A stretch of DNA of 64,000 bases from Flavobacterium palustre (GTDB lineage: Bacteria > Bacteroidota > Bacteroidia > Flavobacteriales > Flavobacteriaceae), in contig NZ_BMGA01000001.1 of the NCBI RefSeq assembly GCF_014639535.1, positions 930,001 through 994,000 of the forward strand, written 5' to 3'. Below, piece by piece: positions 12,940-40,429 of the stretch. Both the position numbers and the translations under genes were made by a program. Positions within the stretch are counted from its first letter, which is position 1. The number at the start of each line of letters is the position of its first letter. The notes below the pieces were generated by a model. The model ran no database searches. It saw nothing but the letters and a program-made list of their open reading frames with translations, and was not told the DNA's origin.

Positions 12940-13890
12940 TTATTTCCTTTTTTTCTGCTGTTGAATTTGGAATTTCCTCGGGCTGATTCCGTTACGCTGT
13001 GAAAAAGTTGAGGTAAAATGCTGTAATGACGAAAATCCGCATACAAAAGCAATATCTGCCATGCTGCTATTTTTGTTATTCTGAATCAATTCGATAGCTT
13101 TTTCCAGTTTTAAACTTATAATAAAACTGTTAGGCGGGAAACCGGTAAGTTTTTTTACTTCATAGGTAAATTTGGTTTTTCCCATATTAAATTCTGAAGC
13201 CAAATCTTCAATATGCCATTTTTTAGTTAAGTCGTTTTGAAGCAATTGGGTCAGTTTTTCAATAAAGCTGTCGTCTTCCTGACTTTTTTGGATTTTATTT
13301 GAAAGCTGTCGGTGTAAATCGATGAAAAGATTCTCCAGAATGTTTTGGACTTTTATTTCAAAACCTTCTTCCTGATAAGCTAATTCATTTCTTAATTCGT
13401 CAAAATATTTTTTAAAATTCTTCGCTTTTTCTAATACTGAATTGCTGGCATCGCCAATCATTTCTCCCAAACTTTGCTGGAATTTTTTAGATAATTTACT
13501 CCAGTTACCAAAGTCCAAAGCAGTTTCTTTTGAGAATTCAGATGGTTTGATAATAATCCAGTTGATCTGACCAATATCCATAATTCCTGAAATACTGCCG
13601 TTTTCATGCCAGGGCGCGGTAACCGATAAATTCTCAGGTAGCAATTCGATTTCTTTGCCTTCGATTACCCAGTCGTATTTTCCGCTGTTGACATAGTGGA
13701 TTTCGATTCCGTCATTCAAATGAGGTCGCATGGTGTCGTCTATGCGGACTTTGGAAAATTTCATGCTACCAAACTGACGTATAAAAGGCAGTTTTTTTAA
13801 AGGTCCGGGATTGTTTTCGTGCCACCAAACACCATAATTACCATGTTCGTCTTTTTCGCTTAAGCTTTTTGGTAATAAAAAGGAATTCAT
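12940..13890 (-). CDS. AraC-family transcriptional regulator
   Basis: This 316-residue regulator has an N-terminal cupin-like sugar-sensing half (about residues 40-130, with GIEIHYVNSGKYDWVIEGKEIELLPENLSV). Its C-terminal AraC/XylS double helix-turn-helix spans about 205-310. Helix one is WHIEDLASEFNMGKTKFTYEVKKLTG and helix two is SSMADIAFVCGFSSLQHFTSTFSQRNG, ending with the usual PRKFQ. It is divergent from the first enzyme gene of the polysaccharide locus with a 285-bp shared spacer, so it probably controls that locus. No hybrid two-component sensor or anti-sigma pair is seen beside the locus, making this the only local candidate regulator. Confidence 0.88.
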   Translation of the reverse strand: MNSFLLPKSLSEKDEHGNYGVWWHENNPGPLKKLPFIRQFGSMKFSKVRIDDTMRPHLNDGIEIHYVNSGKYDWVIEGKEIELLPENLSVTAPWHENGSISGIMDIGQINWIIIKPSEFSKETALDFGNWSKLSKKFQQSLGEMIGDASNSVLEKAKNFKKYFDELRNELAYQEEGFEIKVQNILENLFIDLHRQLSNKIQKSQEDDSFIEKLTQLLQNDLTKKWHIEDLASEFNMGKTKFTYEVKKLTGFPPNSFIISLKLEKAIELIQNNKNSSMADIAFVCGFSSLQHFTSTFSQRNGISPRKFQIQQQKKRK

Positions 13891-14175: not shown

Positions 14176-16689
14176 ATGTTTCTAAAAAATCGACATTCTT
14201 TATTGACTTTTTTAGTGGTGTTTTTCACTGCGTTTTCAATGCAGGCTGCTGACATTTGGGTAGCTACAAACGGAAATGATGCTAATGAAGGTACAAAAGC
14301 CAGTCCGCTGGCAACGGTACACATGGCGTTGAGAAAAGCCAGAGAACTGCGTCGATTGAAAGATGCTTCGGTAAAAGGTGGAATTCATATTATTATAAAA
14401 GACGGAACTTATTATTTTGACGAACCTTTATTTGTAAGACCTGAAGATTCAGGAACTGCAGATAGTCCTACTACTATTGAAGCCGATGCGAATGCAAAAC
14501 CAATATTTCACGGAGGGATTCAAATTAAAAACTGGAAAAAAACAACTACGACAATCAATGGACTAAAAGCCGGAGCTGTTTGGGTAGCCGATGCTCCTCA
14601 AATTGCAGGCGAAGTAATCAATTACCGCCAACTTTGGGTAAACGATGTAAAAGCGGTGCGTGCTAAAAGTACTGCCGGAGACAAAATGGATCGCATTTTG
14701 TCCTGGGATAAGGAAACGGAGACTTGCTGGATTCCTTTTAAAGATAAGTCGGTTAAGTTTGAGCCGGGAATGGAAATGTTCATCGTACAATGGTGGGCTA
14801 TTGCTAATTTACGTATTAAAAATATCGAAGTTGTCAAAGACAGCGCCCGACTTTCATTCGAAAAGCCGGAAAGCCGTATTCAGAGTGAGCATCCGTGGCC
14901 TGCGCCGTGGATTTCTAAGAATAACGGAAATTCGGCATTCTTCCTGAATAATGGGATGTCATTATTGAACGAGGCAGGAGAGTGGTTTTTGGATAGAAAA
15001 AAAGCCAAAATCTATTATATCCCAAGAGCAGGGGAAAATATGGCTTCCGCCAAAGTTACTGCACCTGTATTAGAGAATTTAGTGGATGTAAAAGGTACCA
15101 TCGATTCGCCAGTAAGTTATTTTAAATTCAAAGGAATTTCGTTTCAATACAGTAATTGGTTGCGTCCTTCCCAACAAGGTCATGTGCCATTGCAGGCGGG
15201 AATGTATTTGCTGGATGCTTATAAGTTAAAAGTTCCGGGAACGCCAAATCAGGCTAATTTAGAAAATCAGGCTTGGGTGGGAAGACCACGTGCTGCTGTT
15301 GAAGTGAATTTTGCCAATAATACAGCGTTTGAAAGTTGTAGTTTTGAGCATTTGTCTTCTACTGGTTTAGATTTCAATAAGGGAACTAACCACAATCGTG
15401 TTCAGGGAAATTTATTTAAAGACATTGGCGGAAACGGAATTAATCTGGGCGTTTTCTCCGAAGAGCCTTTTGAAGCCCATTTACCATTGGTTGTAAAAGA
15501 CGAAAGAGAAGTTTGTTCTGACGAATTGGTGGCTGATAATATGATTACCAATGTTGCCAATGAAGATTGGGGATGTTTAGGAATTGCAGCCGGTTTTGTT
15601 AAAGGTCTGACCATTGAACACAACGAGATTTCGGATGTGGCTTACAGCGGGATTTCGATGGGATGGGGTTGGACGCATACTGAAAATGTGATGCGCAACA
15701 ATAAAATATTGGCCAATAAAATCCATCATTATGCCAAACATCTGCATGATGTGGCGGGAATTTATACGCTTTCTTCTCAGGCAGACAGCCGAATTGAAGA
15801 GAACTACATTGACAAAGTGTATTTCAGTCCGTATGCACACGATCCGTTTTTATGGTTGTATTTGTACACCGATGAAGGATCACAGCATTTTACTATTCAA
15901 AACAACTGGATTCCGATTCAGAAAATCTTAAAAAACAACAATGGACCTGCAGGAAATATCTGGAAAGATAATTATGCTTTTGTTGATCCAAAAATCAAGG
16001 AAAATGCAGGTGTTCGCGCTCCTTATGCTAATTTGAAAAAGGAAGTGGTTGTTGACGAAACCTGGGGATTACAGGAAATGCCTAAGTCGGTTGCGATTGA
16101 ATTAGTTGGAAAAGATTTTGATATCGAAAAAATCAAATCGACTATAAAAGGTTTCCGAATTGTAGGTGAAGAGTTGTACCAATGGGAAAATCATTTGGTG
16201 ATTTACGGATTGATGAATCAGCCGGAAAGAACCAAAAAGAAACTGGCTTTGGCTTTCCCGGCATTGCAAATAAAAATTTATGAAAATCCGGTTTATGATT
16301 TTCAAAATTTTGAAAGATGTCCGGGAGTAAAACCAGCTTCGGAATGGGAAAATATTGTTTTGACCGCTAATTTGGTTGAAGATCCAAAAATGCAACAGGA
16401 ATATCTGGATTACCATAAAACCCAATTTGAAAAATGGCCGGAAGTAGCCAAAGGTTTTTGTAATGCCGATTTCCAACAATTGCAGGTTTTCAAAAACGGA
16501 AGACAATTAATGTTGGTGATTAGTATTCCAAAAGGAGAAAGTTTGGATAAGTTAAATCCAAAAACGACCGAAAACAATCCACGTGTCGATGAATGGAATG
16601 CGATAATGAAAAAATACCAAACTGGAGTTGAAGGAACAAAACCCGGAGAAGTTTGGAATTTTTTGAAAAAACTTGAAGAAAAAAAATAG
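14176..16689 (+). CDS. Exported beta-helix glycosidase-like protein fused to an L-rhamnose mutarotase-like domain
   Basis: This 837-residue protein has a signal peptide ending near residue 24 (MQAADIW). Residues about 25-625 form a right-handed parallel beta-helix with an inserted beta domain, and the start WVATNGNDANEGTKASPLATVHMA is typical. The layout recalls GH141, which includes fucosidases and xylanases, but that family call is tentative. Residues about 640-735 are an alpha+beta half. About 736-835 match RhaM/DUF718 rhamnose mutarotases: EYLDYHKTQ with Tyr746 and His747, KWPE with Trp754, and the C-terminal block NPRVDEWNAIMKKYQ..KPGEVW. The spacing between His and WPE is three residues longer than usual. 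Periplasmic location would be unusual for a mutarotase. An oxidoreductase and a symporter follow. Confidence 0.75.
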   Translation: MFLKNRHSLLTFLVVFFTAFSMQAADIWVATNGNDANEGTKASPLATVHMALRKARELRRLKDASVKGGIHIIIKDGTYYFDEPLFVRPEDSGTADSPTTIEADANAKPIFHGGIQIKNWKKTTTTINGLKAGAVWVADAPQIAGEVINYRQLWVNDVKAVRAKSTAGDKMDRILSWDKETETCWIPFKDKSVKFEPGMEMFIVQWWAIANLRIKNIEVVKDSARLSFEKPESRIQSEHPWPAPWISKNNGNSAFFLNNGMSLLNEAGEWFLDRKKAKIYYIPRAGENMASAKVTAPVLENLVDVKGTIDSPVSYFKFKGISFQYSNWLRPSQQGHVPLQAGMYLLDAYKLKVPGTPNQANLENQAWVGRPRAAVEVNFANNTAFESCSFEHLSSTGLDFNKGTNHNRVQGNLFKDIGGNGINLGVFSEEPFEAHLPLVVKDEREVCSDELVADNMITNVANEDWGCLGIAAGFVKGLTIEHNEISDVAYSGISMGWGWTHTENVMRNNKILANKIHHYAKHLHDVAGIYTLSSQADSRIEENYIDKVYFSPYAHDPFLWLYLYTDEGSQHFTIQNNWIPIQKILKNNNGPAGNIWKDNYAFVDPKIKENAGVRAPYANLKKEVVVDETWGLQEMPKSVAIELVGKDFDIEKIKSTIKGFRIVGEELYQWENHLVIYGLMNQPERTKKKLALAFPALQIKIYENPVYDFQNFERCPGVKPASEWENIVLTANLVEDPKMQQEYLDYHKTQFEKWPEVAKGFCNADFQQLQVFKNGRQLMLVISIPKGESLDKLNPKTTENNPRVDEWNAIMKKYQTGVEGTKPGEVWNFLKKLEEKK

Positions 16690-16936: not shown

Positions 16937-18001
16937 ATGTTAAAAATAGCCATTTTAGGTCTTGGAGAAGGACGTAGTACCATGTCGGCAGCGATAGAAA
17001 GCAGCAAAGTAGAACTGGTAAAAGTATGTGACAGAAATGAAGAATTGTGCAAACAAAGAGCAAAGGAATTTGATTTTCCGCACTACACTACAAATTATGA
17101 CGATTTGTTAAAAGACGAGGCTATTGATATCATTGCTATTTACACGCCGGATCATTTGCATGCTGAACATGTAAAACAAGCGTTGTTGCATGGAAAACAC
17201 GTAGTTTGTACCAAGCCTTTTATTGATGATCTTTCGGATGCGAAGGAATTATTGGAACTGAGCGAGAAAACTGGGAAAAAGGTTTTCATCGGACAAAGTT
17301 CCAGATTTTTTGAACCAGCAAAAAGACAAAGAGCCGATTATGAAGCTGGTTTAATAGGTGATTTGATCACGATTGAAGCGCAATATCACGCTGACCACAG
17401 ATGGTTTTTGAAGAAAGAATGGTCTTTGTTACAATCTTTCAAATGGTTGTACGGTGGTTTGAGCCATCCAGTAGATTTTATCAGATGGTATTTGCCCAAT
17501 ATCGAAGAAGTGATGGGTTACGGAATGATTAGCAGCAACGGAAAATCGGCGGGATTGAAGAATGAAGATACAATGCATTTTATCTTCAAAGCGACTGACG
17601 GAAGAATTGCCAGAGTGAGTGGTGTTTATACTTCGCCAACACAGCCAGCTCAAAGAGACAGCGGAATGAGCACTATTTTGAGAGCTACTGAAGGTGCCAG
17701 TCAAGCTGATTATCACGAATTGCGTTATGCGGTGACCGACAAAACCGGTGAAGAAAAAGTAATCACTTGGGGTGATGCGACTTTAAAATATTATTTCCGT
17801 TTTGAGGGACAAAGTCATCATGGAGGGGAATACCAAAACTATTTAGAGTATTTTGCTGATAGTATTGAACAAGGTTTTACTGCTTATCCGGATATGAAAG
17901 AAGGAATTGGAACCGTAGCTTTATTGCAGGCAATGGACAGAACATTACAAACAGGAATGCCAGTAAAAATTGCTGATATTTTAAAAGAATACAACCTATG
18001 A
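16937..18001 (+). CDS. Gfo/Idh/MocA family oxidoreductase
   Basis: This 354-residue NAD(P)-dependent sugar oxidoreductase has an N-terminal Rossmann fold (KIAILGLGEGRSTMSAA) and the family CTKPF motif in place of EKP (GKHVVCTKPFIDDLSDAKEL). The C-terminal alpha/beta domain has GGLSHPVDFIRWYLP, with the conserved His. No signal peptide is seen, so it is cytoplasmic. The stop overlaps the symporter start by 4 bp (ATGA), showing translational coupling. It probably oxidises or reduces a sugar imported by that symporter; the substrate cannot be read from sequence. Confidence 0.85.
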   Translation: MLKIAILGLGEGRSTMSAAIESSKVELVKVCDRNEELCKQRAKEFDFPHYTTNYDDLLKDEAIDIIAIYTPDHLHAEHVKQALLHGKHVVCTKPFIDDLSDAKELLELSEKTGKKVFIGQSSRFFEPAKRQRADYEAGLIGDLITIEAQYHADHRWFLKKEWSLLQSFKWLYGGLSHPVDFIRWYLPNIEEVMGYGMISSNGKSAGLKNEDTMHFIFKATDGRIARVSGVYTSPTQPAQRDSGMSTILRATEGASQADYHELRYAVTDKTGEEKVITWGDATLKYYFRFEGQSHHGGEYQNYLEYFADSIEQGFTAYPDMKEGIGTVALLQAMDRTLQTGMPVKIADILKEYNL

Positions 18002-19581
18002 ATAACAGTATCTACGATAAATTAACTGCTTTAGACTTTATAATTGTTGCTGTTTATTTAGTGATATTATTAGTTATTGGATACATTGTTAGTGTCAAAC
18101 AAAGTAAGAAGAACGAAACCCTATTCATGGCCGGAAATTCATTGAACTGGTACAACATCGGATTCAATATGTGGGGAACTAATGTGGGGCCTTCGTCATT
18201 ATTGGCTTTTGCAAGTATTGGTTACACTACAGGAATTGTAGCCGGAAATTTTGAATGGTATGCTTTTGTGTTTTTATTATTGTTAGCTATTGTTTTTGCA
18301 CCAAAATATATTGCCAGCAAAGTAAGTACAATGCCCGAATATATGGGAAAACGCTATGGCGATAGTACGCAGACTATTTTGGCCTGGTATGCCATGGTGA
18401 AAATTTTGGTAAGCTGGTTGTCATTAGGATTATTTAGTGGAGGAGTTTTAGTCCGCCAAATTTTAGGAATTCCAATGTGGCAAAGTGTAACCGTTTTAGT
18501 TATTTTTTCTGGGATTTTTACTTATGCAGGAGGATTAAAAGCGATTGCTAAGGTAAATGTGTTTCAGATGATTTTGCTAATTGTGGTTTCGCTAACCTTA
18601 TCGTATTTAGGTTTACAACAAGTAGGTGGAATTGATGCATTGATTGCTAAGACGCCTTCGAATTTTTGGAATTTAGTGCGTCCTGCAGATGATGCCCATT
18701 ATCCGTGGCCAGCCATTTTATTAGGTTATCCAGTCGCAGCGGTAGCTTTCTTTTGTACTGACCAATCGATGGTACAAAGTGTATTGGGAGCCAAAAATTT
18801 GGAACAAGGACAATTAGGAGTGAATTTTATCGGTTGGTTGAAAGTAATGGCGTTGCCGTTATTTATTTTACCGGGGATTTTGTGTGCTGTGTTGTATCCT
18901 GAGTTAGGAGAAAATTCAGATTTGGCTTATATGACTATGGTTACGAATTTATTCCCAAGCGGAATGAACGGTTTAGTTATTTGTGTGATGATTGCCGTAT
19001 TAGTAGCGACGATTGGTTCTTCTTTGAATGCTTTGAGTACGGTGTTTACCAATGATATTTATGTGAAAAAAATCAATCCGGAGGCAACTATTAAAGATCA
19101 AATCAAAATTGGACGTTTGACAATTGCTGCCGGATGCGTGTTTTCTATTTTGATTGCAATAGCTATCGATAATATCAAAGGACAGAATTTATTCAATATT
19201 TTTCAGGCTGTTTTAGGTTTCTTAGCACCTTCATTATCTGTGGTGTTTTTATTGAGTATTTTTTGGAAACGTACTACCAAAAAAGCGGTAAATGGAACTT
19301 TGTCTTGGGGTTCAGCCTTTAGTTTGTTCGTTGGGGTTTTGTATTTATGGATTTTTCCGGCAGATGAATACGCAATTTGGCCCCACTTTTTACTAATTTC
19401 ATTCTACATCTTTTTAGTTTTATTGGTATCGGCAATTATGATTTCGTTATTGGATAAAAATCCTGAAACTACTTTTGTAAGCGAAACTGATGTTCCTAAA
19501 ACCAGCAAAAAAGTGAAGTTGTTGTTTGGTTTATTAGGAGTAACAATTATCGTTTTATATCTCATTTTTAATTTTAATTAA
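17998..19581 (+). CDS. Sodium:solute symporter (SSS family) for a sugar
   Basis: This 527-residue inner-membrane protein has about 13 hydrophobic segments and SSS/SGLT features. These include NWYNIGFNMWGTNVGPSSLLAFA in the second segment, the unwound TM1 region, and the family block GGLKAIAKVNVFQM. It is coupled to the oxidoreductase upstream and ends 1 bp before the rhamnosidase ATG, so it belongs to the same operon. It likely brings a monosaccharide or uronic acid from the periplasm into the cytoplasm with Na+. Rhamnose is a reasonable guess from the neighbours but is not shown. Confidence 0.87.
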   Translation: MNNSIYDKLTALDFIIVAVYLVILLVIGYIVSVKQSKKNETLFMAGNSLNWYNIGFNMWGTNVGPSSLLAFASIGYTTGIVAGNFEWYAFVFLLLLAIVFAPKYIASKVSTMPEYMGKRYGDSTQTILAWYAMVKILVSWLSLGLFSGGVLVRQILGIPMWQSVTVLVIFSGIFTYAGGLKAIAKVNVFQMILLIVVSLTLSYLGLQQVGGIDALIAKTPSNFWNLVRPADDAHYPWPAILLGYPVAAVAFFCTDQSMVQSVLGAKNLEQGQLGVNFIGWLKVMALPLFILPGILCAVLYPELGENSDLAYMTMVTNLFPSGMNGLVICVMIAVLVATIGSSLNALSTVFTNDIYVKKINPEATIKDQIKIGRLTIAAGCVFSILIAIAIDNIKGQNLFNIFQAVLGFLAPSLSVVFLLSIFWKRTTKKAVNGTLSWGSAFSLFVGVLYLWIFPADEYAIWPHFLLISFYIFLVLLVSAIMISLLDKNPETTFVSETDVPKTSKKVKLLFGLLGVTIIVLYLIFNFN

Positions 19582-19582: not shown

Positions 19583-21763
19583 ATGAACCTATTTTCTTCT
19601 TTACGTCAGAGTTTTAAAACGATTGTTTGCGTTTTTGCCTTATTCTTTTTGTCAGAAGCGGCTTCAGCTCAAACCTGGATTTGGTATCCAGGCGATTTTG
19701 AAGTTTGGTTGAGCAATAAAATGCAGGTACGACGTACGGAACGCGAAGCAGTATTTCCACCGCTTTGGCAATATTACAGCCCGTATGCTCTGGTAACTTT
19801 TCAAACAGAAGTTGATATTCCGGAAGCAGATGAGGTGAAAATCTTCACCGAAGGACCTTTTCAATTACTTTTAGATGGTGTTCAAATTTACGGACAGCCA
19901 AAATCATTAAAAATTCCTGCGGGGAAACACAAGATTTCCTTTAAAGTATACAATCAGGAAGTGTTGCCGGCTATTTATATTGCTGGTAAGTTTGTCAAAT
20001 CCGATTCTTCATGGAAGGTTACTAATGAAGATAAACTTTGGATTGATGAAAATGGAAAAGCACAACAATCCGGTACACCATGGGTGCCTGTGGGTTCCTG
20101 GAATTTTGATGCGCCAGAAAATAAGCCTTCTGGTTTTAGATTGGCTACGACTCCTTGGAATGCCAAAAAAACAGAGAAAACTGCTGCCGGTCAATTGGTG
20201 GATTTTGGTAAAGAAACTTTTGGTTATATCAAAATTCACGGTCTAAAAGGCAAAGGAAAAATAGCCTTATATTATGGCGAGTCCCGTGAGGAAGCCTTGG
20301 ATACAGCCAAATGTGAAACCTTAGATCATTTATCATTTGATGGAAAGCAAGCCGAAACCTATACACATACTGGATCCAAAGCATTCCGCTATGTTCAGGT
20401 ACAAGCAGATCCTGCTTTAAAATACGATTCCATTTCAATGGATTATGAATATTTGCCATTAGAATATCGCGGGGCATTCAAATCTTCGGACCAGGAATTG
20501 AATAAAATTTGGGATGTCTCGGCTTACACCATGCATTTAACCTCACGCGAATTTTTTATAGACGGAATTAAGCGTGATCGTTGGGTTTGGTCTGGCGATG
20601 CTTATCAAAGTTATCTAATGAATTATTATTTATTCTTTGATTCGGCTTCAGTAGAACGTACTTTGTTGGCTCTTCGTGGCAAAGAACCGGTGACGGCGCA
20701 TATCAATATCATCATGGATTATTCCTTATATTGGTTTGTAGGTGTTTACGATTATTATTTGCATACCGGCGATACCAAATTTATCAAAACCTTCTATCCA
20801 AGAATGAAATCACTGATGGAATTCTGCTTAGAGAGAAGAAACAAAAACGGATTCCTGGAACCATTAGAAGGCGACTGGGTTTTTATTGATTGGGCAAACG
20901 GATTGCCAAAAACCGGCGAAGTGAGTTTTGAACAAATGCTTTTGGCCAGAAGTCTGGAAGCTATGGCGGTGAGTGCCAAAATTGCCGGTCAAAATGAGGA
21001 TCAAAAGCAATATGATAAATTAGCTGATGATCTTAAAACCAGATTGTTTGAGGTGTTTTGGGACAAAAAAGAAAACGTCATGAAGCACCAGCGTATCGAT
21101 GGTAAAATTCAGGATATTGTAACCAGATACGCTAATATGTTCGGTATTTTCTTCAATTATTTTGATGAAGAACAAAAACAAAGTATAAAAAATAAGGTGT
21201 TACTCAACAAAGATGTTCTTCAAATCACTACACCATATATGCGTTTTTACGAGTTGGAAGCCTTATGCGCTATGGGTGAACAGGATTATGTTTTGAAAGA
21301 AATGAAAGACTATTGGGGCGGAATGTTAAACGAAGGAGCAACTTCTTTTTGGGAAGAATACAACCCAACCAAAAAAGGGGCAGCACATTTAGAAATGTAT
21401 GGACGCCCTTATGGAAAAAGTCTTTGCCACGCCTGGGGTTCCAGTCCAATTTATTTGTTAGGGAAATACTATTTGGGTGTAAAACCAACTGCGCCTGGTT
21501 ATGCTGAGTACGAAATCAAACCAAATTTAGGCGGATTACAATGGATGCAAGGTAAAGTTCCAACACCAAAAGGCGAAGTTGCATTGTATGTAAGCAAATC
21601 TGAAATAAAGGTAAAAGCTGCTGAAGGTGAAGGAAAATTAATTATTGATAGTAAAAGCAAGCCAAAAACCAATTCAGGAACGATTGTTGAGTTAGCAAAA
21701 AACAAATATCAATTAACGGTTAAACCAAATGTTGAGTATAAAGTGAGTTATAAAGCGATTTAA
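19583..21763 (+). CDS. Alpha-L-rhamnosidase (GH78-type), exported
   Basis: This 726-residue protein has a signal peptide ending at ASA-QTW (about residue 29). N-terminal beta domains precede an (alpha/alpha)6 barrel. The GH78 acid region usually reads DCPxR(D/E); here it is DGIKRDRWVWSGDA (Asp327 and Asp332 to Asp339). The base region is GATSFWEEYNP with Glu591, followed by HAWGSSPIYLLGKYYLGV. The protein is shorter than many GH78 enzymes and diverged at the first motif. It would remove terminal L-rhamnose in the periplasm. It is in the operon with the symporter. Confidence 0.82.
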   Translation: MNLFSSLRQSFKTIVCVFALFFLSEAASAQTWIWYPGDFEVWLSNKMQVRRTEREAVFPPLWQYYSPYALVTFQTEVDIPEADEVKIFTEGPFQLLLDGVQIYGQPKSLKIPAGKHKISFKVYNQEVLPAIYIAGKFVKSDSSWKVTNEDKLWIDENGKAQQSGTPWVPVGSWNFDAPENKPSGFRLATTPWNAKKTEKTAAGQLVDFGKETFGYIKIHGLKGKGKIALYYGESREEALDTAKCETLDHLSFDGKQAETYTHTGSKAFRYVQVQADPALKYDSISMDYEYLPLEYRGAFKSSDQELNKIWDVSAYTMHLTSREFFIDGIKRDRWVWSGDAYQSYLMNYYLFFDSASVERTLLALRGKEPVTAHINIIMDYSLYWFVGVYDYYLHTGDTKFIKTFYPRMKSLMEFCLERRNKNGFLEPLEGDWVFIDWANGLPKTGEVSFEQMLLARSLEAMAVSAKIAGQNEDQKQYDKLADDLKTRLFEVFWDKKENVMKHQRIDGKIQDIVTRYANMFGIFFNYFDEEQKQSIKNKVLLNKDVLQITTPYMRFYELEALCAMGEQDYVLKEMKDYWGGMLNEGATSFWEEYNPTKKGAAHLEMYGRPYGKSLCHAWGSSPIYLLGKYYLGVKPTAPGYAEYEIKPNLGGLQWMQGKVPTPKGEVALYVSKSEIKVKAAEGEGKLIIDSKSKPKTNSGTIVELAKNKYQLTVKPNVEYKVSYKAI

Positions 21764-21900: not shown

Positions 21901-23583
21901 ATGTTTTCAAAAAACACTACATACAATTTCAAATTAATGACTGCTTTTTTAGTGCTATTTGCAATCTGTACTCAATTTGCAAGAGCACAAAATAAAGCTT
22001 GGCAAGCTGCCTCTTTTGAAGTAATAAAATCCAATTACAAAACTTTCAAAACCACGCAATACGCGCATGTTTTTTCGAATAGTAAAAGCAATATTGTTCG
22101 TCTAGCTTCAGAATTAGAAGGTTTGAAAGGAGTCGAATTGCCTTTGGATAGTTATAAAAGCGGAACCAACGCTCCTTTGAAATTGAAATTCAAGGAAAAT
22201 GTGCAATTGCTTATTGGTGTTTTTCAGGAAAAAGACAATAAAGATTATTTGCAAATTGCTAGTTCCGATAAAGCTAAATTAGTCCTAGAAAATGGAGTTA
22301 CTATTACAGGCTTACCACCGGTAAATGTGTATGCTGTCGCTTTCGCAAAAGGGACTCACACTATTTTACCAAATGCAAAAGGATTGTTTGTGCTTTTAGG
22401 CGCTGTGAAAAGCAATCAAAATTTAACATTCAGAAACGCCGAATTTCCAGATGGTAAACTGTGGAATCCAACTTTTATCGTCGAAGGATTTTCAGATGAG
22501 AAACCATTATTCGAAATTATCGGTGGAGAAAATAAACCGGTTATTGACGAAGGTTTTCCAGGGGTGGACGGCATTCAAGGTGGTTTTGAAGGCGGTCGTG
22601 TGGTAAAAGTGGGCGATACTTACCATATGTTTCCAACCGAAAGAGCCGGTGAAATGGGAGTGCCTTATTATTATGACCGTGTAAAAACTAAAATCGGACA
22701 TTGGACCAGTAAAGATGCCATTCATTGGAAACGCGAATCAACCATTTTACAGGCCAGCGGAACCTATGCCATTACCGAAGATGATAATCCGATGAATGAC
22801 CGTCGTGCAGCCATTTGGTCGTATATGCCGGTTTTCAATGCAAAAGCAAACAAATGGTATGGTTATTATTTGGCTTATACTGTTCATAAAGAAATTGAGC
22901 CAAATCACTCTTTTGGTCGTATTTGGCGTTGCGAGTCAACGGTAGAAGGGATTGACGGAATTGCTGGACCATATAAAGATATCGGCATCATCATGGAACC
23001 AGGATTGGATTCGCAACCTTGGGAAGGACGTCAGGGAGTAGCTTCTTTCTTTCCATACCGAGTGGGGGATAAATTTTATGGATTTTACAGCGGTGCTTAT
23101 CCTTTTGAAAGTTGGAAAGATTATCCTAAAAAATCCGGAAAAGGCTGGTTTGTGGCTTTGGCCGAATCCAATAGTTTGGAAGGCCCTTGGATACGAATGA
23201 ACAAAGGTTTGGAACCTATAAAATCCATTCACCCCATGTTTGTGGAAAATCCAATTGTGAGTCAGCTACCAAATGGCATATACATTGCTGTTTTTGATGG
23301 AGGTCCCGACGGTTGGGGACATCATTTGCCTAATATGATGGGCTATTCTTTGTCTAAGGACGGAGTCAATTGGTCGGAAGCTCGTTATTGGCCTATTGAA
23401 ACCAAAGTAGACAAATGGTGGGACATCATGCGTACGCCTTTGTGCCTGATTCCTGAAGGAAATGATGTGTATACGATTGTGTATAACGCTATCGATTTGA
23501 AACGACGTTTTCACCCGACTGGGATGGTGAAATTAAAATTGAATCGTGAGGTGATGGATGCCCGATTGAAAGAATTGAAATAA
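21901..23583 (+). CDS. Exported beta-propeller glycosidase-like protein, unknown specificity
   Basis: This 560-residue protein has a signal peptide ending near residue 30 (FARAQNK). Residues about 30-190 form an N-terminal beta domain. Residues about 190-550 read as a five-bladed propeller of the GH43/GH32-like kind, with blades such as GGRVVKVGDTYHMFPTERA, IGHWTSKDAIHWKRES and MGYSLSKDGVNWSEARYW. Acidic residues suitable for catalysis lie in FPGVDGIQGGFEGGR and FVENPIVS, but no family signature allows a named activity. It may be an exo-acting glycosidase on pectin side chains. The next gene is another propeller. Confidence 0.6.
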   Translation: MFSKNTTYNFKLMTAFLVLFAICTQFARAQNKAWQAASFEVIKSNYKTFKTTQYAHVFSNSKSNIVRLASELEGLKGVELPLDSYKSGTNAPLKLKFKENVQLLIGVFQEKDNKDYLQIASSDKAKLVLENGVTITGLPPVNVYAVAFAKGTHTILPNAKGLFVLLGAVKSNQNLTFRNAEFPDGKLWNPTFIVEGFSDEKPLFEIIGGENKPVIDEGFPGVDGIQGGFEGGRVVKVGDTYHMFPTERAGEMGVPYYYDRVKTKIGHWTSKDAIHWKRESTILQASGTYAITEDDNPMNDRRAAIWSYMPVFNAKANKWYGYYLAYTVHKEIEPNHSFGRIWRCESTVEGIDGIAGPYKDIGIIMEPGLDSQPWEGRQGVASFFPYRVGDKFYGFYSGAYPFESWKDYPKKSGKGWFVALAESNSLEGPWIRMNKGLEPIKSIHPMFVENPIVSQLPNGIYIAVFDGGPDGWGHHLPNMMGYSLSKDGVNWSEARYWPIETKVDKWWDIMRTPLCLIPEGNDVYTIVYNAIDLKRRFHPTGMVKLKLNREVMDARLKELK

Positions 23584-23640
23584 GAATAGAGAGAAAAGAA
23601 CAAAGATAAGAGACAAAAGAATTGTCCAAAAAAGTAGGAA

Positions 23641-24771
23641 ATGAAGAATTCAGTACAATATTTCGTTATTGCAATGGCAACAATTTTGTTAGCCAGTTGC
23701 GCCACAAAATACAAGAAAAGGGAAATCACCGATGCGGTAATGAATGAAATTTATAATGAAATAAAAACGCCCTACAAATACGGTTTGGTGATGGTGCCAA
23801 CGGATAACTCTTATAAAATGGACTGTCCTTCGGTTTTTCGAAAAGACGGAAAATGGTTTATGACTTATTTGATTTATGATGGAAGAGGTTACGAAACCTG
23901 GTTGGCTGAAAGTGATGATTTATTGAATTGGAAACATTTAGGAAAAGTAATGTCATTTTCAAAAGATGAAAAGGAGTGGGACGTGAACCAAAAAGCAGGA
24001 TATATTTCATTGCAGGATCCGACTTGGGGCGGAAGCTACAAATGGAATAAATATGATGGAAAATATTGGATGAGTTATTTTGGTGGAAATACCACAGGAT
24101 ATGAAGCTGGGGTTTTATCAATCGGGATGGCTTATACGAAAGAGTCTCCAACAAAAGCACACGAATTTGAACGTTTGCCGAAACCGGTTTTAACACCAAA
24201 AGATACTGATGTAAGTTTTTGGGATAACAGTACGATGTATAAAAACTCGGTTATTGAAGACAAAGAACGCATTACCGGAAGTAAATTTATCATGTATTAT
24301 AATGCCCGTGGCGATAGTTTGAATCCGGCTAAAGGTGCAGAACGTATTGGGATGGCAGTTTCTAACGATATGAAAACCTGGAAACGTTACGGAAAAAAAG
24401 CATTGTTGAATCACCATAGAGGAATTACTGGCGATGCCTATATACAAAGAGTTAATGATACTTGGGTGATGTTTTATTTTGGTGCTTTCTGGAGAGATTG
24501 GAATCAGGGAGCGTTTAACAGATTTGCAGTTTCCAACGATTTGGTGAACTGGAAAGAATGGAAAGGCGATAATTTAATTGAATCTTCTGAACCGTATGAT
24601 AATATGTTTGCCCATAAATCATTTGTGGTAAAACACGACGGAGTAGTATATCATTTTTATTGTGCAGTAAATAAAGCGGAACAGCGAGGAATTGCAGTAG
24701 CTACTTCGAAAGATTTAGGGAAAAGCCAAATGAATTTTGTTGCTCCACCGGTGAAAGTTAAGAAGAACTAA
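23641..24771 (+). CDS. Beta-propeller glycosidase-like lipoprotein
   Basis: This 376-residue lipoprotein has lipobox LASC with Cys20 (MATILLASCATK). The mature part is a five-bladed propeller with repeated strand pairs (DGKWFMTYLIYDGRGYETWLAES, DDLLNWKHLGKV, AVSNDMKTWKRYGK, AVSNDLVNWKEWKG). An Asp in KMDCPSVFRKDGKW sits where GH43-clan enzymes carry the base. It resembles GH43- or GH130-like proteins but is not clearly either. As a lipoprotein it may sit on the outer membrane next to SusD. It follows the other propeller gene by 57 bp. Confidence 0.6.
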   Translation: MKNSVQYFVIAMATILLASCATKYKKREITDAVMNEIYNEIKTPYKYGLVMVPTDNSYKMDCPSVFRKDGKWFMTYLIYDGRGYETWLAESDDLLNWKHLGKVMSFSKDEKEWDVNQKAGYISLQDPTWGGSYKWNKYDGKYWMSYFGGNTTGYEAGVLSIGMAYTKESPTKAHEFERLPKPVLTPKDTDVSFWDNSTMYKNSVIEDKERITGSKFIMYYNARGDSLNPAKGAERIGMAVSNDMKTWKRYGKKALLNHHRGITGDAYIQRVNDTWVMFYFGAFWRDWNQGAFNRFAVSNDLVNWKEWKGDNLIESSEPYDNMFAHKSFVVKHDGVVYHFYCAVNKAEQRGIAVATSKDLGKSQMNFVAPPVKVKKN

Positions 24772-24804
24772 GTACCAAGTATTAAGAATTAAGACAAATT
24801 TTGT

Positions 24805-24828
24805 GATTCCTCCTTTGTCGGAATGACA
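24805..24828. repeat. CATTCCGACGAAGGAGGAA repeat, half copy C
   Basis: Only the right arm is present (GATTCCTCCTTTGTCGGAATGACA in two pieces: GATTCCTCCTTTG, TCGGAATGACA), with one C-to-T change. The left arm is missing. Confidence 0.7.
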
Positions 24829-24838
24829 AGAACACTAA

Positions 24839-28153
<3,315 letters not shown>

Positions 28154-28159
28154 TGAGGT

Positions 28160-28206
28160 CATTGCGAGTTTCGATATTTATCGGAACTCCAAATGACAAA
28201 ACAATA
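28160..28206. repeat. GTCATTGCGAG-type partial repeat before GH106
   Basis: The spacer reads GAGGTCATTGCGAG and then GGAACTCCAAATGACAAAAC. It is a degraded member of another dispersed palindrome family with GTCATT/AATGAC ends. It keeps an open frame that falsely extends GH106 upstream to 28153. Confidence 0.45.
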
Positions 28207-28212
28207 ACAACA

Positions 28213-31200
28213 ATGTTTCAAAAAAAGTACCTCTTTCTTTTTTTATTTCTTGTGGGAATGCTTTCCGCACAGGAAGTCCATAAAAAAGAATCATTTCAAT
28301 CCACACTAGAATCCTCAAAAACCTGGGTGTATTGGTATTGGATGAAATCGGCTTATTCTAAAGAAGGAATCACTGCCGATTTAGAAGCGATGAAACAAGC
28401 CGGAATTGCAGGTGCTTATTTGATGACGATTAAAGGTCCGGCAAATCCGCCATTGATTGATCCGCCGGTTTTACAGTTGAGTCCTGAATTTTGGGATATG
28501 GTAAAATGGGCATTTGTAGAAGCCGATCGTCTGGGCTTAAAACTTGCTTTTCATGCTGCTGATGGTTTTGCTGTTGCCGGAGGACCTTGGATAACGCCTG
28601 AAATGTCGATGCAAAAAGTAGTCTGGTCAACAACAGAAATCCTTGGTGGTAAAAAACAAAATATTCAGTTAGCCACTCCGGAACACTATAAAGAGTATTA
28701 TAAAGACATTGCGACTTTTGCCATTCCGATAAAAGAAAACACAATTACTTCGCAACAACAGCTGCCAAAGGTTACGACTTCTAATAACAGCGATGCTTCG
28801 TTTTTAGCCGATGCAAAAAAAGAGGATAATTTTAGATTGGGCGAAAACGGTTGGATTCAATACGAATTCGAAAAACCATTTACGTGCAAATCGATTGTTA
28901 TTGAAACCAAAGGAAGGGATTTTCAGGCACAGCGTTTAATTGTTGAAGTAAGTAATGACGGAGTGAGTTTTAAGTTTCACGAACGAATGATTCCACCGCG
29001 TCACGGCTGGCAGGATATGGATGTGCACCATACACATACAATTAAACCCGTTACGGCAAAATATTTCCGATTCGTGTATGATGTTACTGGGACAGAACCC
29101 GGAGCCGAAGATTTGGATTTTGCCAAATGGAAACAGAATAATTTGAAAGTGAGTAAAATTACACTTTCGAACCAGTCGCTAATTGATAATTATGAAGGAA
29201 AATCGGGAGCGGTATGGCGATTGAGTCCAACAATCACCGAAGAACAAATTCCAAATTCGGATGCGTTCAAAAAATCCGGTATTATCAATATTTCTAAATT
29301 TGTTGATGCCAACGGAAATTTAACATGGAAAGCTCCAAAAGGAAAATGGAAAATTATCCGAATGGGACATACTTCAACCGGACATGAAAATGCAACCGGA
29401 GGAGCGGGAAAAGGCTTGGAAGTGGATAAATTCAATCCTGAGTTAGTTCGTTACCAATTGGATCACTGGTTTGGCGAAGCCATTCGTATTGCCGGTCCTG
29501 AATTGGCCTCAAGAGTATTGGAGATTTTACATTTGGACAGTTGGGAATGCGGTAGCCAGAATTGGTCTTCCGTTTTTCAGGCTGAGTTTTTAAAACGTCG
29601 TGGTTATAATATAGTAGATTATTTGCCGGTAATGGCAGGAATTCCTATCGAAAGTGTTTCGACTTCTGAAAAAGTTTTATACGATGTTCGAAAAACAATC
29701 TCCGAATTAATAGCGGATAATTTTTATGTGACTCTTGCTGATATTGCTAAAAAAGCAAATGTAAAATTCAGTTCTGAGAATGTGGCGCCAACGATGATGA
29801 GCGACGGATTATTGCATTTTAAACATGTCGATTATCCGAGTGGGGAATTTTGGTTAAAAAGTCCTACGCACGACAAACCTTTTGATATGCTGGATGCCAT
29901 TTCAGGCGGACATATTTATGGAAAAGACATTATTCAGGCGGAAGCTTTTACGGCTTTGCGAATGGATTGGGATGAACATCCGGGGAATTTGAAAACCTTG
30001 GCCGATAGAAATTATGCACTAGGAATTAATCGTTTTTTCTATCATGTTTTTGTTCATAATCCTTGGACGGACAGAAAACCGGGAATGACTTTGGACGATA
30101 TTGGAACTTTTTTCCAGAGAGACCAAACCTGGTGGAAACAAGGAAAAGCATGGTTTGACTATTGCCAAAGAGTGCAGTTGCAATTGCAAAAAGGAAAACC
30201 TGTGATAGATTTAGCGGTTTTTATTGGCGAAGATTTGCCTTCGCGTTCGTTAGTCCCAGACCGTTTGTTTCCTTTTATTCCGAATGTTTTTGGAGAAGAG
30301 CGAGTGGCAAGTGAAAAAATGCGATTGGAAAATGTGGGGCAACCAGCAGCCAAAATGCCTAAGGAAGTGACTTATTCTAAAAACAATACCGATTTATCAC
30401 AATGGGTAAACCCAATGAATGGCTATCAATACGACTCTTTTAATGCTGATGTGTTGTTGAACAGAGCTAAAGTGGTGAATGGTAAAGTTGATTTTGGAGG
30501 AGGCATTGAATATGCGGCTTTATTGTTTCCGGGAAGCCGAAGAATGGCACCGAATAAAATTATGTCTTTGGCTGTAGCCGAAAAAATATTGCAATTGGTA
30601 AAAGAAGGAGCCACCGTTTTTATTGACGAAAAACCAATTGATACGCCAAGTTTTCAATCGGATTTAGAAGTTAAAAAATGGCAGACAATTGTTGATGAAT
30701 TGTGGACTGAAGGAAAGGAACTAACTAAAAACGAAAATGGATCTGTTTCCTGGAAATTAGGAAAAGGTACAGTTATTGAACTTCCGTTTTTAGGTGCTGA
30801 TTTTACAAAAATTGGAATTGCACCAGATGTATTGTTTTCGGATTTGAAGCATAATGACAGAGGAACAATTGCCTGGACACACCGACGAAGTGCTGATGAA
30901 GAAGTTTATTTCCTTTCGAATCAGTTGGAAGAAAAAAGAATGATTATGGTGTCTTTTCGCGAAAACGGTAAAAAACCGGAAATGTACAATCCTGTAACAG
31001 ACAAAACTATTGCGTTACAAGAATGGAAAGTGGAAAACGGTCGAACAATTATACCGTTGCAGCTGGATAAAAATGAGTCTTGTTTTGTGATTTTTAAAAA
31101 TGGAAGTAGAGAAAATAGTGTTGCGAAAGGAACGAATTGGTTTGATTTAAAAGCCGTTCAAACTTTAGATGAAAATTGGAAATTACAATTTGATGCTGGT

Positions 31201-31638
31201 TTCAAAGGACCTGAAAAAGAATTGAAGATTAACAAATTGTTTGACTGGAGTACATCGGCAAATGAAAATATTAAATATTATTCAGGAACAGCGGTGTATA
31301 GCAAAGAGTTTACTTGGAATCAAAACACAAATACTGCTGTTTATCTGAATTTAGGTTCGATAGCAAATTTGGCTGAAGTGAGTGTGAACGGAATAGATTG
31401 TGGAACAATCTGGACTTTCCCATATCGTACTGATATTTCGAAAGCATTACAAAAAGGCAAAAACAAAATAGTAATTAAAGTTACAAATACCTGGGCAAAC
31501 CGATTGATTGGTGATCAAAAATTACCGGAAAAGGAACGACTAACATGGACAACGGCGCCTTACAGGTTAGTTGAAACTGAGAATTTATTAAAAGCAGGTT
31601 TGTTAGGACCGGTGACTTTAGAACAAGAAAATAAATAA
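28213..31638 (+). CDS. Alpha-L-rhamnosidase, glycoside hydrolase family 106
   Basis: This 1141-residue protein has a signal peptide ending near residue 20 (FLVGMLSAQE). It has the GH106 start (SKTWVYWYWMKSAYSKEGITADLEAMKQAGIAGAYL). The TIM barrel includes GLKLAFHAADGFAVAGGPWITPEMSM, the long central part contains EILHLDSWECGSQNWS and AEAFTALRMDWDEHPG, and a galactose-binding-like beta-sandwich lies at the C-terminus (KYYSGTAVYSKEFTW). The length matches characterised GH106 enzymes, which cleave rhamnose from rhamnogalacturonans. The ATG at 28153 would place 20 repeat-derived residues ahead of the signal peptide, so 28213 is used. Confidence 0.88.
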   Translation: MFQKKYLFLFLFLVGMLSAQEVHKKESFQSTLESSKTWVYWYWMKSAYSKEGITADLEAMKQAGIAGAYLMTIKGPANPPLIDPPVLQLSPEFWDMVKWAFVEADRLGLKLAFHAADGFAVAGGPWITPEMSMQKVVWSTTEILGGKKQNIQLATPEHYKEYYKDIATFAIPIKENTITSQQQLPKVTTSNNSDASFLADAKKEDNFRLGENGWIQYEFEKPFTCKSIVIETKGRDFQAQRLIVEVSNDGVSFKFHERMIPPRHGWQDMDVHHTHTIKPVTAKYFRFVYDVTGTEPGAEDLDFAKWKQNNLKVSKITLSNQSLIDNYEGKSGAVWRLSPTITEEQIPNSDAFKKSGIINISKFVDANGNLTWKAPKGKWKIIRMGHTSTGHENATGGAGKGLEVDKFNPELVRYQLDHWFGEAIRIAGPELASRVLEILHLDSWECGSQNWSSVFQAEFLKRRGYNIVDYLPVMAGIPIESVSTSEKVLYDVRKTISELIADNFYVTLADIAKKANVKFSSENVAPTMMSDGLLHFKHVDYPSGEFWLKSPTHDKPFDMLDAISGGHIYGKDIIQAEAFTALRMDWDEHPGNLKTLADRNYALGINRFFYHVFVHNPWTDRKPGMTLDDIGTFFQRDQTWWKQGKAWFDYCQRVQLQLQKGKPVIDLAVFIGEDLPSRSLVPDRLFPFIPNVFGEERVASEKMRLENVGQPAAKMPKEVTYSKNNTDLSQWVNPMNGYQYDSFNADVLLNRAKVVNGKVDFGGGIEYAALLFPGSRRMAPNKIMSLAVAEKILQLVKEGATVFIDEKPIDTPSFQSDLEVKKWQTIVDELWTEGKELTKNENGSVSWKLGKGTVIELPFLGADFTKIGIAPDVLFSDLKHNDRGTIAWTHRRSADEEVYFLSNQLEEKRMIMVSFRENGKKPEMYNPVTDKTIALQEWKVENGRTIIPLQLDKNESCFVIFKNGSRENSVAKGTNWFDLKAVQTLDENWKLQFDAGFKGPEKELKINKLFDWSTSANENIKYYSGTAVYSKEFTWNQNTNTAVYLNLGSIANLAEVSVNGIDCGTIWTFPYRTDISKALQKGKNKIVIKVTNTWANRLIGDQKLPEKERLTWTTAPYRLVETENLLKAGLLGPVTLEQENK

Positions 31639-31643
31639 AATTT

Positions 31644-31705
31644 AGTCACAGATTAAGAGGATTAACACAGATTTAAAAATCCTTTAAAATCTTTTAATCT
31701 GTGGC
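31644..31705. repeat. CACAGATTAA palindromic repeat, copy 2
   Basis: It matches copy 1 at 16702 over most of its length (CACAGATTAA.. GGATTAACACAGATT .. TCCTTTAAAATCTTTTAATC). It starts 5 bp past the GH106 stop and ends 17 bp before the esterase ATG. Confidence 0.75.
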
Positions 31706-31722
31706 AAAAAAACAGAAAAGAA

Positions 31723-33147
31723 ATGAAGAATTCAATTATTGCATTTTTAGTGATTTTAACAAGCTTTCAAGTGAATGCTACAATCAAATTGCCGGCTTTG
31801 TTTTCGGATAATATGATGCTGCAGCAGCAAAGCAATGCTCCAATTTGGGGTTGGGCTGATAAAAATCAAAAGATAAAAATCAAAACTTCATGGGATTCTA
31901 AAACCTATCAAGTAAAAGCCGATGATGCAGGAAAATGGAAAATTGCTTTAAAAACTCCGGTTGCCGGTGGTCCTTATGAAATTTCGGTTTCGAACGGGAA
32001 GGAAAACAAATCAATTAAAAATATATTAATTGGTGAAGTTTGGCTGTGTTCCGGACAATCGAACATGGAAATGCCTTTGAAAGGATTTCAGGGACAGCCA
32101 ATTAAAAACGGCAACGAAATTATTGTAAGATCAGCGAATCAAAACATTCGATTGATTACCATTCCGCGTGCTACAGTTTTAGAACCAAAAGACGATTTTG
32201 AAGGAAAATGGGAAGTAGCTTCACCAAAATCGACGGCTAATTTTAGTGCGACAGCTTGGTATTTTGGAACACTTTTGCAGGAAGTATTGAATGTTCCGGT
32301 GGGATTAATTCATGTTTCTTATGGCGGATCGAGTATGGAAGCCTGGATGAATCAGGAAATGCTGAAAGATTTTGCAAGTGCAAAAATTCCAACAACAAAA
32401 GAAGAACTGGTAAAAGACCCAAACCGAGTGCCAACGACTTTGTTTAACGGAATGTTGTCGCCAGTTATTGGTTACGGAATTAAAGGTTGTATTTGGTATC
32501 AAGGAGAATCAAATTATGAAAGAGCTTCAGAATATATGGCTTTAATGAATAAAATGGTTTCAAGCTGGAGAACTCTTTGGAATCAGGGTGAATTTCCGTT
32601 TTATTATGCGCAAATCGCCCCATTTAATTATGCTCAATTTCATCCAAAAGACAATAAAGAAGAATACAATTCGGCTTATTTGAGAGAAGCTCAATTGAAA
32701 GCCGCATCAGTAATTCCGAATTCAGGAATGGCGGTTTTGATGGATGTTGGTGAATTCAATAATATTCATCCAATGGATAAAGAAAAAGGTGGAAACCGAT
32801 TAGCGTTTCAGGCTTTGGCAAAAACGTATGGTGTAGAAGGATTTGAATTTGAAAGTCCAAAATACAAATCGATGGAAATAAAAGACGGTGCGGTAACGGT
32901 TTCTTTTGATAATGTCGAAAACGGAATTACATCGTATGATAAGGAAGTTTTAGGATTCGAATTGGCAGGAGAAGACAAGATTTTCCATCCTGCAAAAACG
33001 GTTGTCAGAAGAAAATCAGTGGTTTTGACTTCGGATAAAGTGACGAAGCCTGTTGCTGTTCGTTATTTGTTTAAAGATTTTGCAAAAGCCGAATTGTTTA
33101 GTGCGGGTGGTTTGCCAGTTTCTTCTTTTAGAACGGATAGTTGGTAA
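31723..33147 (+). CDS. Sialate O-acetylesterase-type carbohydrate esterase
   Basis: This 474-residue SGNH-like esterase has a signal peptide ending near residue 19 (QVNATIKLP). The nucleophile block is GEVWLCSGQSNMEMPLKG with Ser113, and the family GCIWYQGESN block is present (YGIKGCIWYQGESNYE). The catalytic Asp/His region is DVGEFNNIHPMDKEKGG. A jelly-roll insertion at the N-terminus is typical for the SASA family. In a pectin locus it most likely removes acetyl groups from galacturonic acid, rhamnose or side-chain sugars rather than sialic acid. Confidence 0.87.
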   Translation: MKNSIIAFLVILTSFQVNATIKLPALFSDNMMLQQQSNAPIWGWADKNQKIKIKTSWDSKTYQVKADDAGKWKIALKTPVAGGPYEISVSNGKENKSIKNILIGEVWLCSGQSNMEMPLKGFQGQPIKNGNEIIVRSANQNIRLITIPRATVLEPKDDFEGKWEVASPKSTANFSATAWYFGTLLQEVLNVPVGLIHVSYGGSSMEAWMNQEMLKDFASAKIPTTKEELVKDPNRVPTTLFNGMLSPVIGYGIKGCIWYQGESNYERASEYMALMNKMVSSWRTLWNQGEFPFYYAQIAPFNYAQFHPKDNKEEYNSAYLREAQLKAASVIPNSGMAVLMDVGEFNNIHPMDKEKGGNRLAFQALAKTYGVEGFEFESPKYKSMEIKDGAVTVSFDNVENGITSYDKEVLGFELAGEDKIFHPAKTVVRRKSVVLTSDKVTKPVAVRYLFKDFAKAELFSAGGLPVSSFRTDSW

Positions 33148-33169
33148 AATAATTAATATATAATTTTTT

Positions 33170-33293
33170 ACCATATAAGTCATATAAGGTGTAAGTGTAA
33201 AAAGTTTAATAGAGAAGTTAATATAAGTTTTGACTTAAATGAACTAGAAAAGTAACTTAGGTTAGAACGAAAAACTTTTATGACTTATATGGT
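33170..33293. repeat. ACCATATAAGTCATA inverted repeat element
   Basis: ACCATATAAGTCATA (33170-33184) and TATGACTTATATGGT (33279-33293) form perfect 15-bp arms around about 94 bp of AT-rich sequence. The element fills most of the spacer between the esterase and DUF5703 genes. Confidence 0.75.
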
Positions 33294-33306
33294 TAAATAA
33301 AAAACA

Positions 33307-35637: not shown

Positions 35638-35698
35638 AATATGTTGTCGTCACTTTGAAATGAGACGATTTATATAAAACCCTAAAATAAATAATTAT

Positions 35699-38167: not shown

Positions 38168-38189
38168 AGAAAAACATTTATTAAGATAA

Positions 38190-40424: not shown

Positions 40425-40429
40425 ATAAA

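Follow-up and report, generated by a model that had tools for sequence, protein, structure and literature searches.

What does a glycosidase destined for the periplasm do with a mutarotase-like module at its C-terminus? The question is raised by a gene of Flavobacterium palustre, located in a stretch of 64,000 nucleotides (contig NZ_BMGA01000001.1, forward-strand positions 930,001 to 994,000) that we refer to as the window and whose own numbering is used below. The gene lies on the plus strand at positions 14176..16689, as a single open frame of 837 amino acids from ATG to stop, and joins a beta-helix enzyme of family GH141 to a module, here called the tail, that is related to the rhamnose mutarotase RhaM (family PF05336). 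An earlier note, made from the letters of the DNA, had described this fusion and supposed that it prepares a released sugar for uptake; we confirm the observation with corrections, and the interpretation is partly supported. With moderate confidence, we propose that the module works in the periplasm as an aldose mutarotase, with the PF05336 fold arranged as an internal pseudo-dimer, between the GH141 enzyme and an importer. The decisive evidence is comparative: the module also exists as a separate gene, and each examined copy of that gene carries its own export signal.

An exported GH141 protein and its C-terminal module

The fusion protein begins with a Sec-type signal peptide without a lipobox (residues 1-24, 14176..14247, plus strand), in which two basic residues precede a hydrophobic 11-mer (mean 2.6 in our script score), and whose cut after SMQA was judged by eye. 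The GH141 catalytic beta-helix follows (residues 25-622, 14248..16041, plus strand), recognized by a phmmer match to PDB entry 5mqp and by a Beta_helix match (PF13229, E 2.2e-9, Pfam), and it encloses a GH141_M insertion domain (residues 133-284, 14572..15027, plus strand; PF21231, E 4.5e-65, Pfam). The closest solved relative is BT_1002 (5mqp), with residues 22-622 aligned to chain positions 22-624 at a phmmer E of 1.3e-195; by this match and the GH141_M domain the protein belongs to GH141. BT_1002 is the rhamnogalacturonan-II fucosidase, and a review describes it as freeing 2-O-methyl-xylose-fucose from chain A, with D523/D564 as its critical Asp pair (PMC10154630). Asp525 and Asp566 of the window protein (first and last codon of 15748..15873, plus strand) align with D528/D569 of the 5mqp chain, and are taken as the putative equivalents of that pair, the numbering of the review appearing to run 5 below that of the PDB chain. 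A search of NCBIfam with the fusion protein gave nothing informative. Among the matches listed, the nearest to the fusion protein is from F. glycines (96%), and the antisense strand across the gene holds one frame of at least 100 aa (134 aa, TTG start).

The earlier note had assigned the C-terminal 100 or so residues to the RhaM family. That assignment stands for the second half of the module (residues 724-837, 16345..16686, plus strand), which matches rhaM PF05336 over residues 731-831 at 44.1 bits against a curated cut-off of 23.4, but the whole module is about 197 residues long (about 637-834) and includes an extra first half (residues 637-710, 16084..16305, plus strand). Six separate tail copies, of the kind described below, scored 36.9-48.9 bits against PF05336, also above the cut-off. 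A chance resemblance to rhaM was rejected, because the score exceeds the cut-off and full-length matches occur in relatives. An AlphaFold2 model of residues 625-837, computed from an input alignment of 30 sequences (pLDDT 91.2, pTM 0.87), consists of two successive beta-alpha-beta-beta-alpha-beta units, the second at about 724-832. As judged from how strands and helices succeed one another in the model, the predicted fold of the domain is ferredoxin-like, as in the PF05336 family and as the earlier note had expected. The first half has no Pfam match, and hhalign detected no resemblance between its profile and that of the second half; the notion that it is a recognizable RhaM repeat was therefore rejected by sequence, and the halves are alike in predicted fold only. 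RhaM proteins are dimers, so that a first half serving as a built-in partner subunit is the natural reading of this arrangement, but it is a reading.

The residues expected of a PF05336 active site are retained in the second half. Tyr743 and His747 (first and last codon of 16402..16416, plus strand) are identical in 20/20 aligned rows to RhaM Tyr18 and His22, presumably the catalytic residues; Trp754-Pro755-Glu756 (16435..16443, plus strand) is conserved in the same rows at 20/20 for Trp754-Pro755 and 19/20 for Glu756; and Trp807, of Trp807-Asn808 (16594..16599, plus strand), corresponds in 20/20 rows to RhaM Trp76. All of these residues, from Y743 and H747 through W754-P755-E756 to W807, are invariant in the 30/30 tails that we aligned. 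The substrate contacts of RhaM, which we take to be Tyr41 and Trp76-Trp77, are kept at one position of three: Leu769 replaces Tyr41 and Asn808 replaces Trp77 in the 20-row alignment, a contact pattern unlike that of RhaM proper. A branch of stand-alone Bacteroidota relatives, considered below, likewise differs from RhaM at these two positions.

The spacing between the His and the Trp-Pro-Glu motif is 6 residues in the window protein and 3 in RhaM, three residues longer, as the earlier note had reported. Its suspicion that the site may thereby be altered or dead is not borne out by the sequence: L003, a protein of the same genome but of the stand-alone branch, also has a longer spacing (5), so that spacing alone does not imply a dead site, and a dead site inferred in this way was rejected. 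The three-residue insertion after the catalytic His and the two replaced contact positions could nevertheless be cited in favor of a non-catalytic module, one that would bind or tether the freed sugar near the enzyme or the transporter. We regard such a role as improbable, in view of the invariant Tyr, His, Trp-Pro-Glu and Trp, the longer spacing of a relative from another branch, the free-standing state of the split copies described below, and the pattern of conservation in distant homologues, in which the second half outranks the rest of the protein. Specifically, identity to the window protein in 5 full-length homologues at the class level was 53-59% for GH141, 24-36% for the first half and 62-75% for the second half, the second half exceeding GH141 in 5/5.

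Fused, split and tail-less loci

Among 395 genomes sampled from the phylum, 15 encode the full-length fused protein, so that the same fusion occurs in other Bacteroidota. A profile of the second half (E <=1e-8) divided its matches in this sample between 15 fused frames of 833-872 aa and stand-alone proteins of 111-153 aa, the latter scoring at most 75 bits. Of 201 genomes of one order, 75 encode this GH141; in 17 of them the match stops at about residue 620-640, and in the others it is full length. Among the matches listed, from 109 relatives, 80/80 align from residue <=12 to >=827, and one of these loci (L068) belongs to F. johnsoniae. We examined 60 stretches from 60 genomes: 38 from the 75 genomes of the one order (17/17 short and 21/58 full-length matches), 11 and 10 from two further searches, and 1 from the 395-genome sample.

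These stretches sorted into 30 with the fused gene, 16 in which a gene of its own encodes the tail, in a family related to the fused carriers, and 14 with no tail in the stretch. The separate gene is adjacent to GH141 in 15 of the 16 split loci and nearby in the other, L234, and all 16 copies have a first half and reach into the second, inside which that of L231 is broken. When the genomes of the 14 tail-less stretches were searched, a full tail was found elsewhere in three (G469, G513 and G666, of another order), and none was found in the remaining 11. A tree of 63 GH141 loci requires, counting starred branches only, at least 2 changes for the fused state and at least 3 for the split state; thus, GH141 and tail were joined or parted more than once. 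The possibility of an isolated fusion or assembly artefact was rejected, as fused copies occur in several families and split copies elsewhere.

Export was scored with a script that evaluates the hydrophobic stretch after an ATG, for starts in the first 70 residues only, and other cases were judged by eye. Every one of the 16 split tail copies has an export signal, 15 by the script (score >2.1) and L241 by eye, and a lipobox was seen in 7 of them by the script and in L241 by eye. The stand-alone tails of G469, G513 and G666 each have a signal by eye. Among fused proteins, 8 of the 10 scored passed; L107 (0.43) and L109 (no ATG in frame) failed because neither has a good ATG start in frame, and both show a long hydrophobic start by eye. 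In contrast, of 37 stand-alone relatives scored (7 RhaM-type, 2 of them repeats of one gene), a signal was found only in L135. The tail therefore carries the export signals expected of a periplasmic role like that of the mutarotase NanM, to which we return below.

Two further genes accompany the tail. In the window, the fusion gene is followed by a gene for a Gfo/Idh/MocA oxidoreductase (16937..18001, plus strand; PF01408, E 1.6e-24), which has no signal peptide, as its domain begins at residue 2, and which found broad family relatives only in the PDB, and then by a gene for an SGLT-like sodium:solute symporter, SSF (17998..19581, plus strand; PF00474, E 1.1e-52), whose PDB matches include SGLT1 (3e-60) and the sodium/glucose cotransporter 2xq2 (1.8e-50). 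Both genes are present in 30/30 fused, 14/16 split and 2/14 tail-less stretches. Once the contig end is included for L234, Gfo/Idh (75%) and SSF (65%) are seen to come directly after its tail gene, at a distance from GH141, which brings the split loci with both partners to 15/16; in this locus, then, the pair tracks the tail and not GH141. By genome content, both partners occur in 46/49 genomes with a tail and in 1/11 without one. The tail-bearing exceptions are L231, L247 (G513) and L250 (G469), and the tail-less exception is L246. No Gfo/Idh, SSF or tail gene is present at the second GH141 loci of G556 and G655. Among the matches listed (80 named loci), both partners were found in 75 of the 76 with more than 3.5 kb downstream, L089 having SSF only. 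The earlier note's proposal that the module readies the sugar for uptake thus gains weight as a putative role from the co-occurrence of SSF and Gfo/Idh and from the signals that the split copies carry for themselves.

Two loci may be described separately. The split tail of L231 (L231:7924-8475) has a broken frame, and Gfo/Idh and SSF are both missing from its 15 kb stretch, which reflects, possibly, joint loss of all three genes, or a sequencing error. In L160, an exported single-domain relative stands directly after the SSF gene, beside aldo/keto reductase and enolase-type genes.

We picture the following events. GH141 would cut the 2-O-methyl-xylosyl-fucose unit from chain A of rhamnogalacturonan-II, and the module would then equilibrate the anomers of the freed sugar, either L-fucose or, after the xylosidic bond is cut, 2-O-methyl-D-xylose. 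Within the module, the second half would hold the Tyr/His/Trp site and the divergent first half would replace the partner subunit. The SGLT-like SSF would import the sugar, and the cytoplasmic Gfo/Idh would start its breakdown by oxidation. Export signal, fold prediction, residue conservation and gene linkage were obtained by calculation; it is from these that we infer the catalysis, the pseudo-dimer, the substrate and the link to transport.

Several observations weigh against a mutarotase serving uptake. Its basis is sequence, prediction and gene linkage, and catalysis is putative. Spontaneous mutarotation of free sugars takes minutes, so that our proposal presupposes that an enzyme is needed. 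Neither the tail alone nor a 12-row profile of its second half found a match in a PDB sequence search, the tail sits on a long stem in the PF05336 tree, and Tyr41 and Trp77 of RhaM are replaced, as noted above. In that tree 7byu, the one validated L-fucose mutarotase included, lies on the side of RhaM, at the end of a long branch (1.81) and in a placement that is unsure, with bootstrap unsettled. Inside the genus Flavobacterium, conservation of the second half is about the same as that of GH141, which is slightly ahead in the closest relatives, so that the argument from conservation is valid across families and not inside the genus. Among the exceptions to gene linkage, L246 has Gfo/Idh and SSF with no tail found in the genome, G513 has a tail with neither partner near GH141 or tail in the stretches examined, and G469 has a tail and SSF (51%) with no Gfo/Idh in the stretches examined. 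Finally, the co-occurrence counts are not independent, because the loci are related and two families supply 46 of the 49 tail-bearing genomes.

Relationship to PF05336 proteins and candidate substrates

The earlier note had implied a RhaM-like specificity. In a 56-row tree, the tail clade and the stand-alone relative L135 group with the Bacteroidota stand-alone branch, and a starred 99/95 branch (bootstrap not fully settled) sets them apart from true RhaM. Consistent with this, hhalign compared the second half of the tail to the stand-alone branch at E 4.6e-27 and to true RhaM at E 4.3e-4. The tail grouped neither with the L-fucose mutarotase FucM (7byu) nor with characterized RhaM. By the tree split, the hhalign scores and the changed Tyr41/Trp77 positions, RhaM specificity was rejected, and the partner in the fusion is, moreover, a fucosidase. 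The window's genome also carries a separate RhaM-type protein, L002, beside a gene that we take to be rhamnose-isomerase-like.

The long stem might instead reflect a different reaction, such as a lactone step, an isomerization or the cleavage of an ether: many chemistries occur on the dimeric alpha+beta barrel fold, and an oxidised sugar might be the product of the Gfo/Idh partner. This we consider very improbable, for the module is exported while Gfo/Idh is without an export signal, and both the PF05336 match and the site residues are kept.

For a mutarotase, the candidate substrates are L-fucose and 2-O-methyl-D-xylose, with L-fucose slightly ahead, because the GH141 partner is a fucosidase and the tail groups with a stand-alone branch that is partly near fucose genes. 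We read the gene context of three Flavobacterium members of that branch. L003, from the window's genome and without an export signal, lies between GH29/GH97 and GH95 genes; L013 adjoins GH29, FAA hydrolase, amidohydrolase and SDR genes, gene types that fit a non-phosphorylating L-fucose route described in PMC11199699; and L001 lies with MFS, BNR-repeat, CutC and peptidase genes and no fucose gene. A fucose-type label for the branch thus rests on part of the contexts, as L001 is uninformative and 7byu falls outside the branch. An L-fucose mutarotase joined to an alpha-L-fucosidase, the specific form of our preferred explanation, is therefore a tentative proposal: the contexts of L003 and L013, the hhalign scores and the tree split speak for it, but gene context is the sole source of the specificity ascribed to the branch, two proteins of the branch without an export signal are already encoded in the window's genome, and no tail was found in 11 genomes with this GH141, where GH141 should still free the fucose unit. 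As a separate observation, L150:8401-14948 (genome 922401-928948), immediately upstream of the window, contains in a row GH29, GH97, a stand-alone PF05336 protein without an export signal, and GH95, a fucoside cluster distinct from, and ~15 kb upstream of, the fusion gene.

The other candidate is a mutarotase for 2-O-methyl-D-xylose, or for the methyl-xylosyl-fucose disaccharide, with tail, SSF and Gfo/Idh forming an uptake cassette; we think it rather unlikely. It would agree with the release of 2-O-methyl-xylose-fucose by BT1002, as reported in the review cited above (PMC10154630), and with the surroundings of GH141 in the three tail-bearing genomes G469, G513 and G666, in which a GH31 gene occurs with relatives of an unassigned 356-aa protein and of a 238-aa protein. 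The GH31 of G469 has an alpha-xylosidase model as its best NCBIfam match (480 bits, below the cut-off of 606), the relatives of the 238-aa protein match the end of MetH weakly (17 bits), and the relative of the 356-aa protein in G513 is cut by the stretch end. A B12-binding corrinoid-type protein was found in G469 and G666, and an MtaA-type methyltransferase in G469, and by the script the 11 genomes without a tail had no GH31/corrinoid/356-aa set in their stretches. However, the set is known from three genomes only, the 30 fused and 16 split stretches (11-20 kb) and the 64 kb window yielded none of its genes, and a weakly similar GH31 gene (29% identity) lies near the second GH141 locus of G556, which has no tail. 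D-apiose was also considered as the substrate; among the papers listed, titles and beginnings of abstracts held nothing relevant to it.

The genes beside GH141 in these three genomes (L293:6340-14606 in G469, L251:1752-9246 in G666 and L247:11437-15000 in G513) are candidates for O-demethylation. A GH31 and corrinoid-type set would fit O-demethylation of 2-O-methyl-xylose, and the 356-aa protein is a candidate for a first methyltransferase acting on the methyl sugars of rhamnogalacturonan-II (RG-II). More broadly, the exported two-domain mutarotases, as internal pseudo-dimers, might constitute a family serving uptake of the methylated chain A unit through an SGLT-like symporter, with Gfo/Idh or corrinoid O-demethylation downstream depending on the genome; we hold this as a speculative extension. 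The literature passages covered made no mention of uptake of chain A methyl sugars by way of an exported mutarotase.

The surrounding locus and comparison with known systems

Divergent from the fusion gene is a gene for an AraC-family regulator (12940..13890, minus strand; PF12833, E 1.7e-16), and beyond SSF is a GH78-like alpha-L-rhamnosidase gene (19583..21763, plus strand; PF21209, 4.2e-80; PF17389, 5.9e-29). Library matches of the window proteins assign 21901..63481 (plus strand) to the remainder of an RG-II-type polysaccharide utilization locus, which encodes GH137-like, GH2, GH106, SASA esterase, DUF5703, GH127 and SusC/SusD proteins and, further, two DUF3826 proteins, DUF6298, a GH140-type apiosidase, GH28, a BT_1020-like propeller protein, GH78 and unassigned proteins; the GH137 and GH140 numbers are those that we presume from the model names. 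The earlier note had named a symporter and two rhamnosidases as neighbors; those identified are the SGLT-like SSF, the GH78-like protein, GH106 and a further GH78, with Gfo/Idh in addition.

Some proteins of this locus deserve separate mention. A 376-aa protein (window 23641-24771) matches only positions 4-366 of 1400 in an NCBIfam beta-glucuronidase/beta-L-arabinofuranosidase model, so that the window seems to encode the enzyme's two parts separately. Large proteins of 560-822 aa (window 35699-38167, 46142-47860, 48807-50564 and 21901-23583) have no Pfam match at the thresholds used; the one at 21901-23583 matches the last part of an alpha-galacturonidase model (8.5e-19, NCBIfam). Upstream of GH141 in two other loci (L152:13295-16758 and L154:12085-15737) are a xylose-isomerase-like TIM barrel protein and a BNR-repeat protein, together with a third protein that is esterase-like in L152 and has no Pfam match in L154; frames of similar size occur upstream of GH141 in many other loci.

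The module appears to vary a known fold and role in a new way, and it occurs in RG-II-type loci across several Bacteroidota families; in the open-licence literature, as far as its texts were accessible, we found no description of a GH141-mutarotase fusion. Periplasmic mutarotases seem to be rare, NanM being the documented case that we found. If our proposal is true, a second, unrelated fold has been recruited to the periplasm and joined to or parted from its glycosidase more than once, which would suggest selection for anomer exchange at the step between hydrolase and importer. It would also offer a direct handle on the anomer selectivity of SGLT-type bacterial importers, and it marks a small cassette of mutarotase, Gfo/Idh and SSF with a substrate among the little-studied sugars of RG-II.

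Compared with BT_1002, the window protein has the same GH141 domain along residues 22-622 and keeps the Asp pair, but BT_1002, with 624 aa, stops about where the extra module starts. RhaM (YiiL 1x8d, RhaU 2qlx) shares with the tail the PF05336 family and the positions of Tyr18, His22, Trp26-Pro27-Glu28 and Trp76; in contrast to RhaM, the tail is exported, has a divergent extra half, lacks equivalents of Tyr41 and Trp77, and stands apart in the tree (99/95). FucM (7byu/7byw) and the Bacteroidota stand-alone branch resemble it in the motifs NPxVxEW and PGExW (L001, L003), whereas those stand-alone proteins are frames of ~110-150 aa, and among the ones scored a signal was seen in L135 alone. The functional precedent is NanM (YjhT), described in PMC10017367 as a periplasmic sialic-acid mutarotase acting upstream of an importer. 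NanM differs in its beta-propeller fold, in being unfused to a glycosidase and in its importer, NanT, yet it is likewise exported and works between a glycosidase and an inner-membrane importer, the position that we propose, by analogy, for the GH141-linked module.

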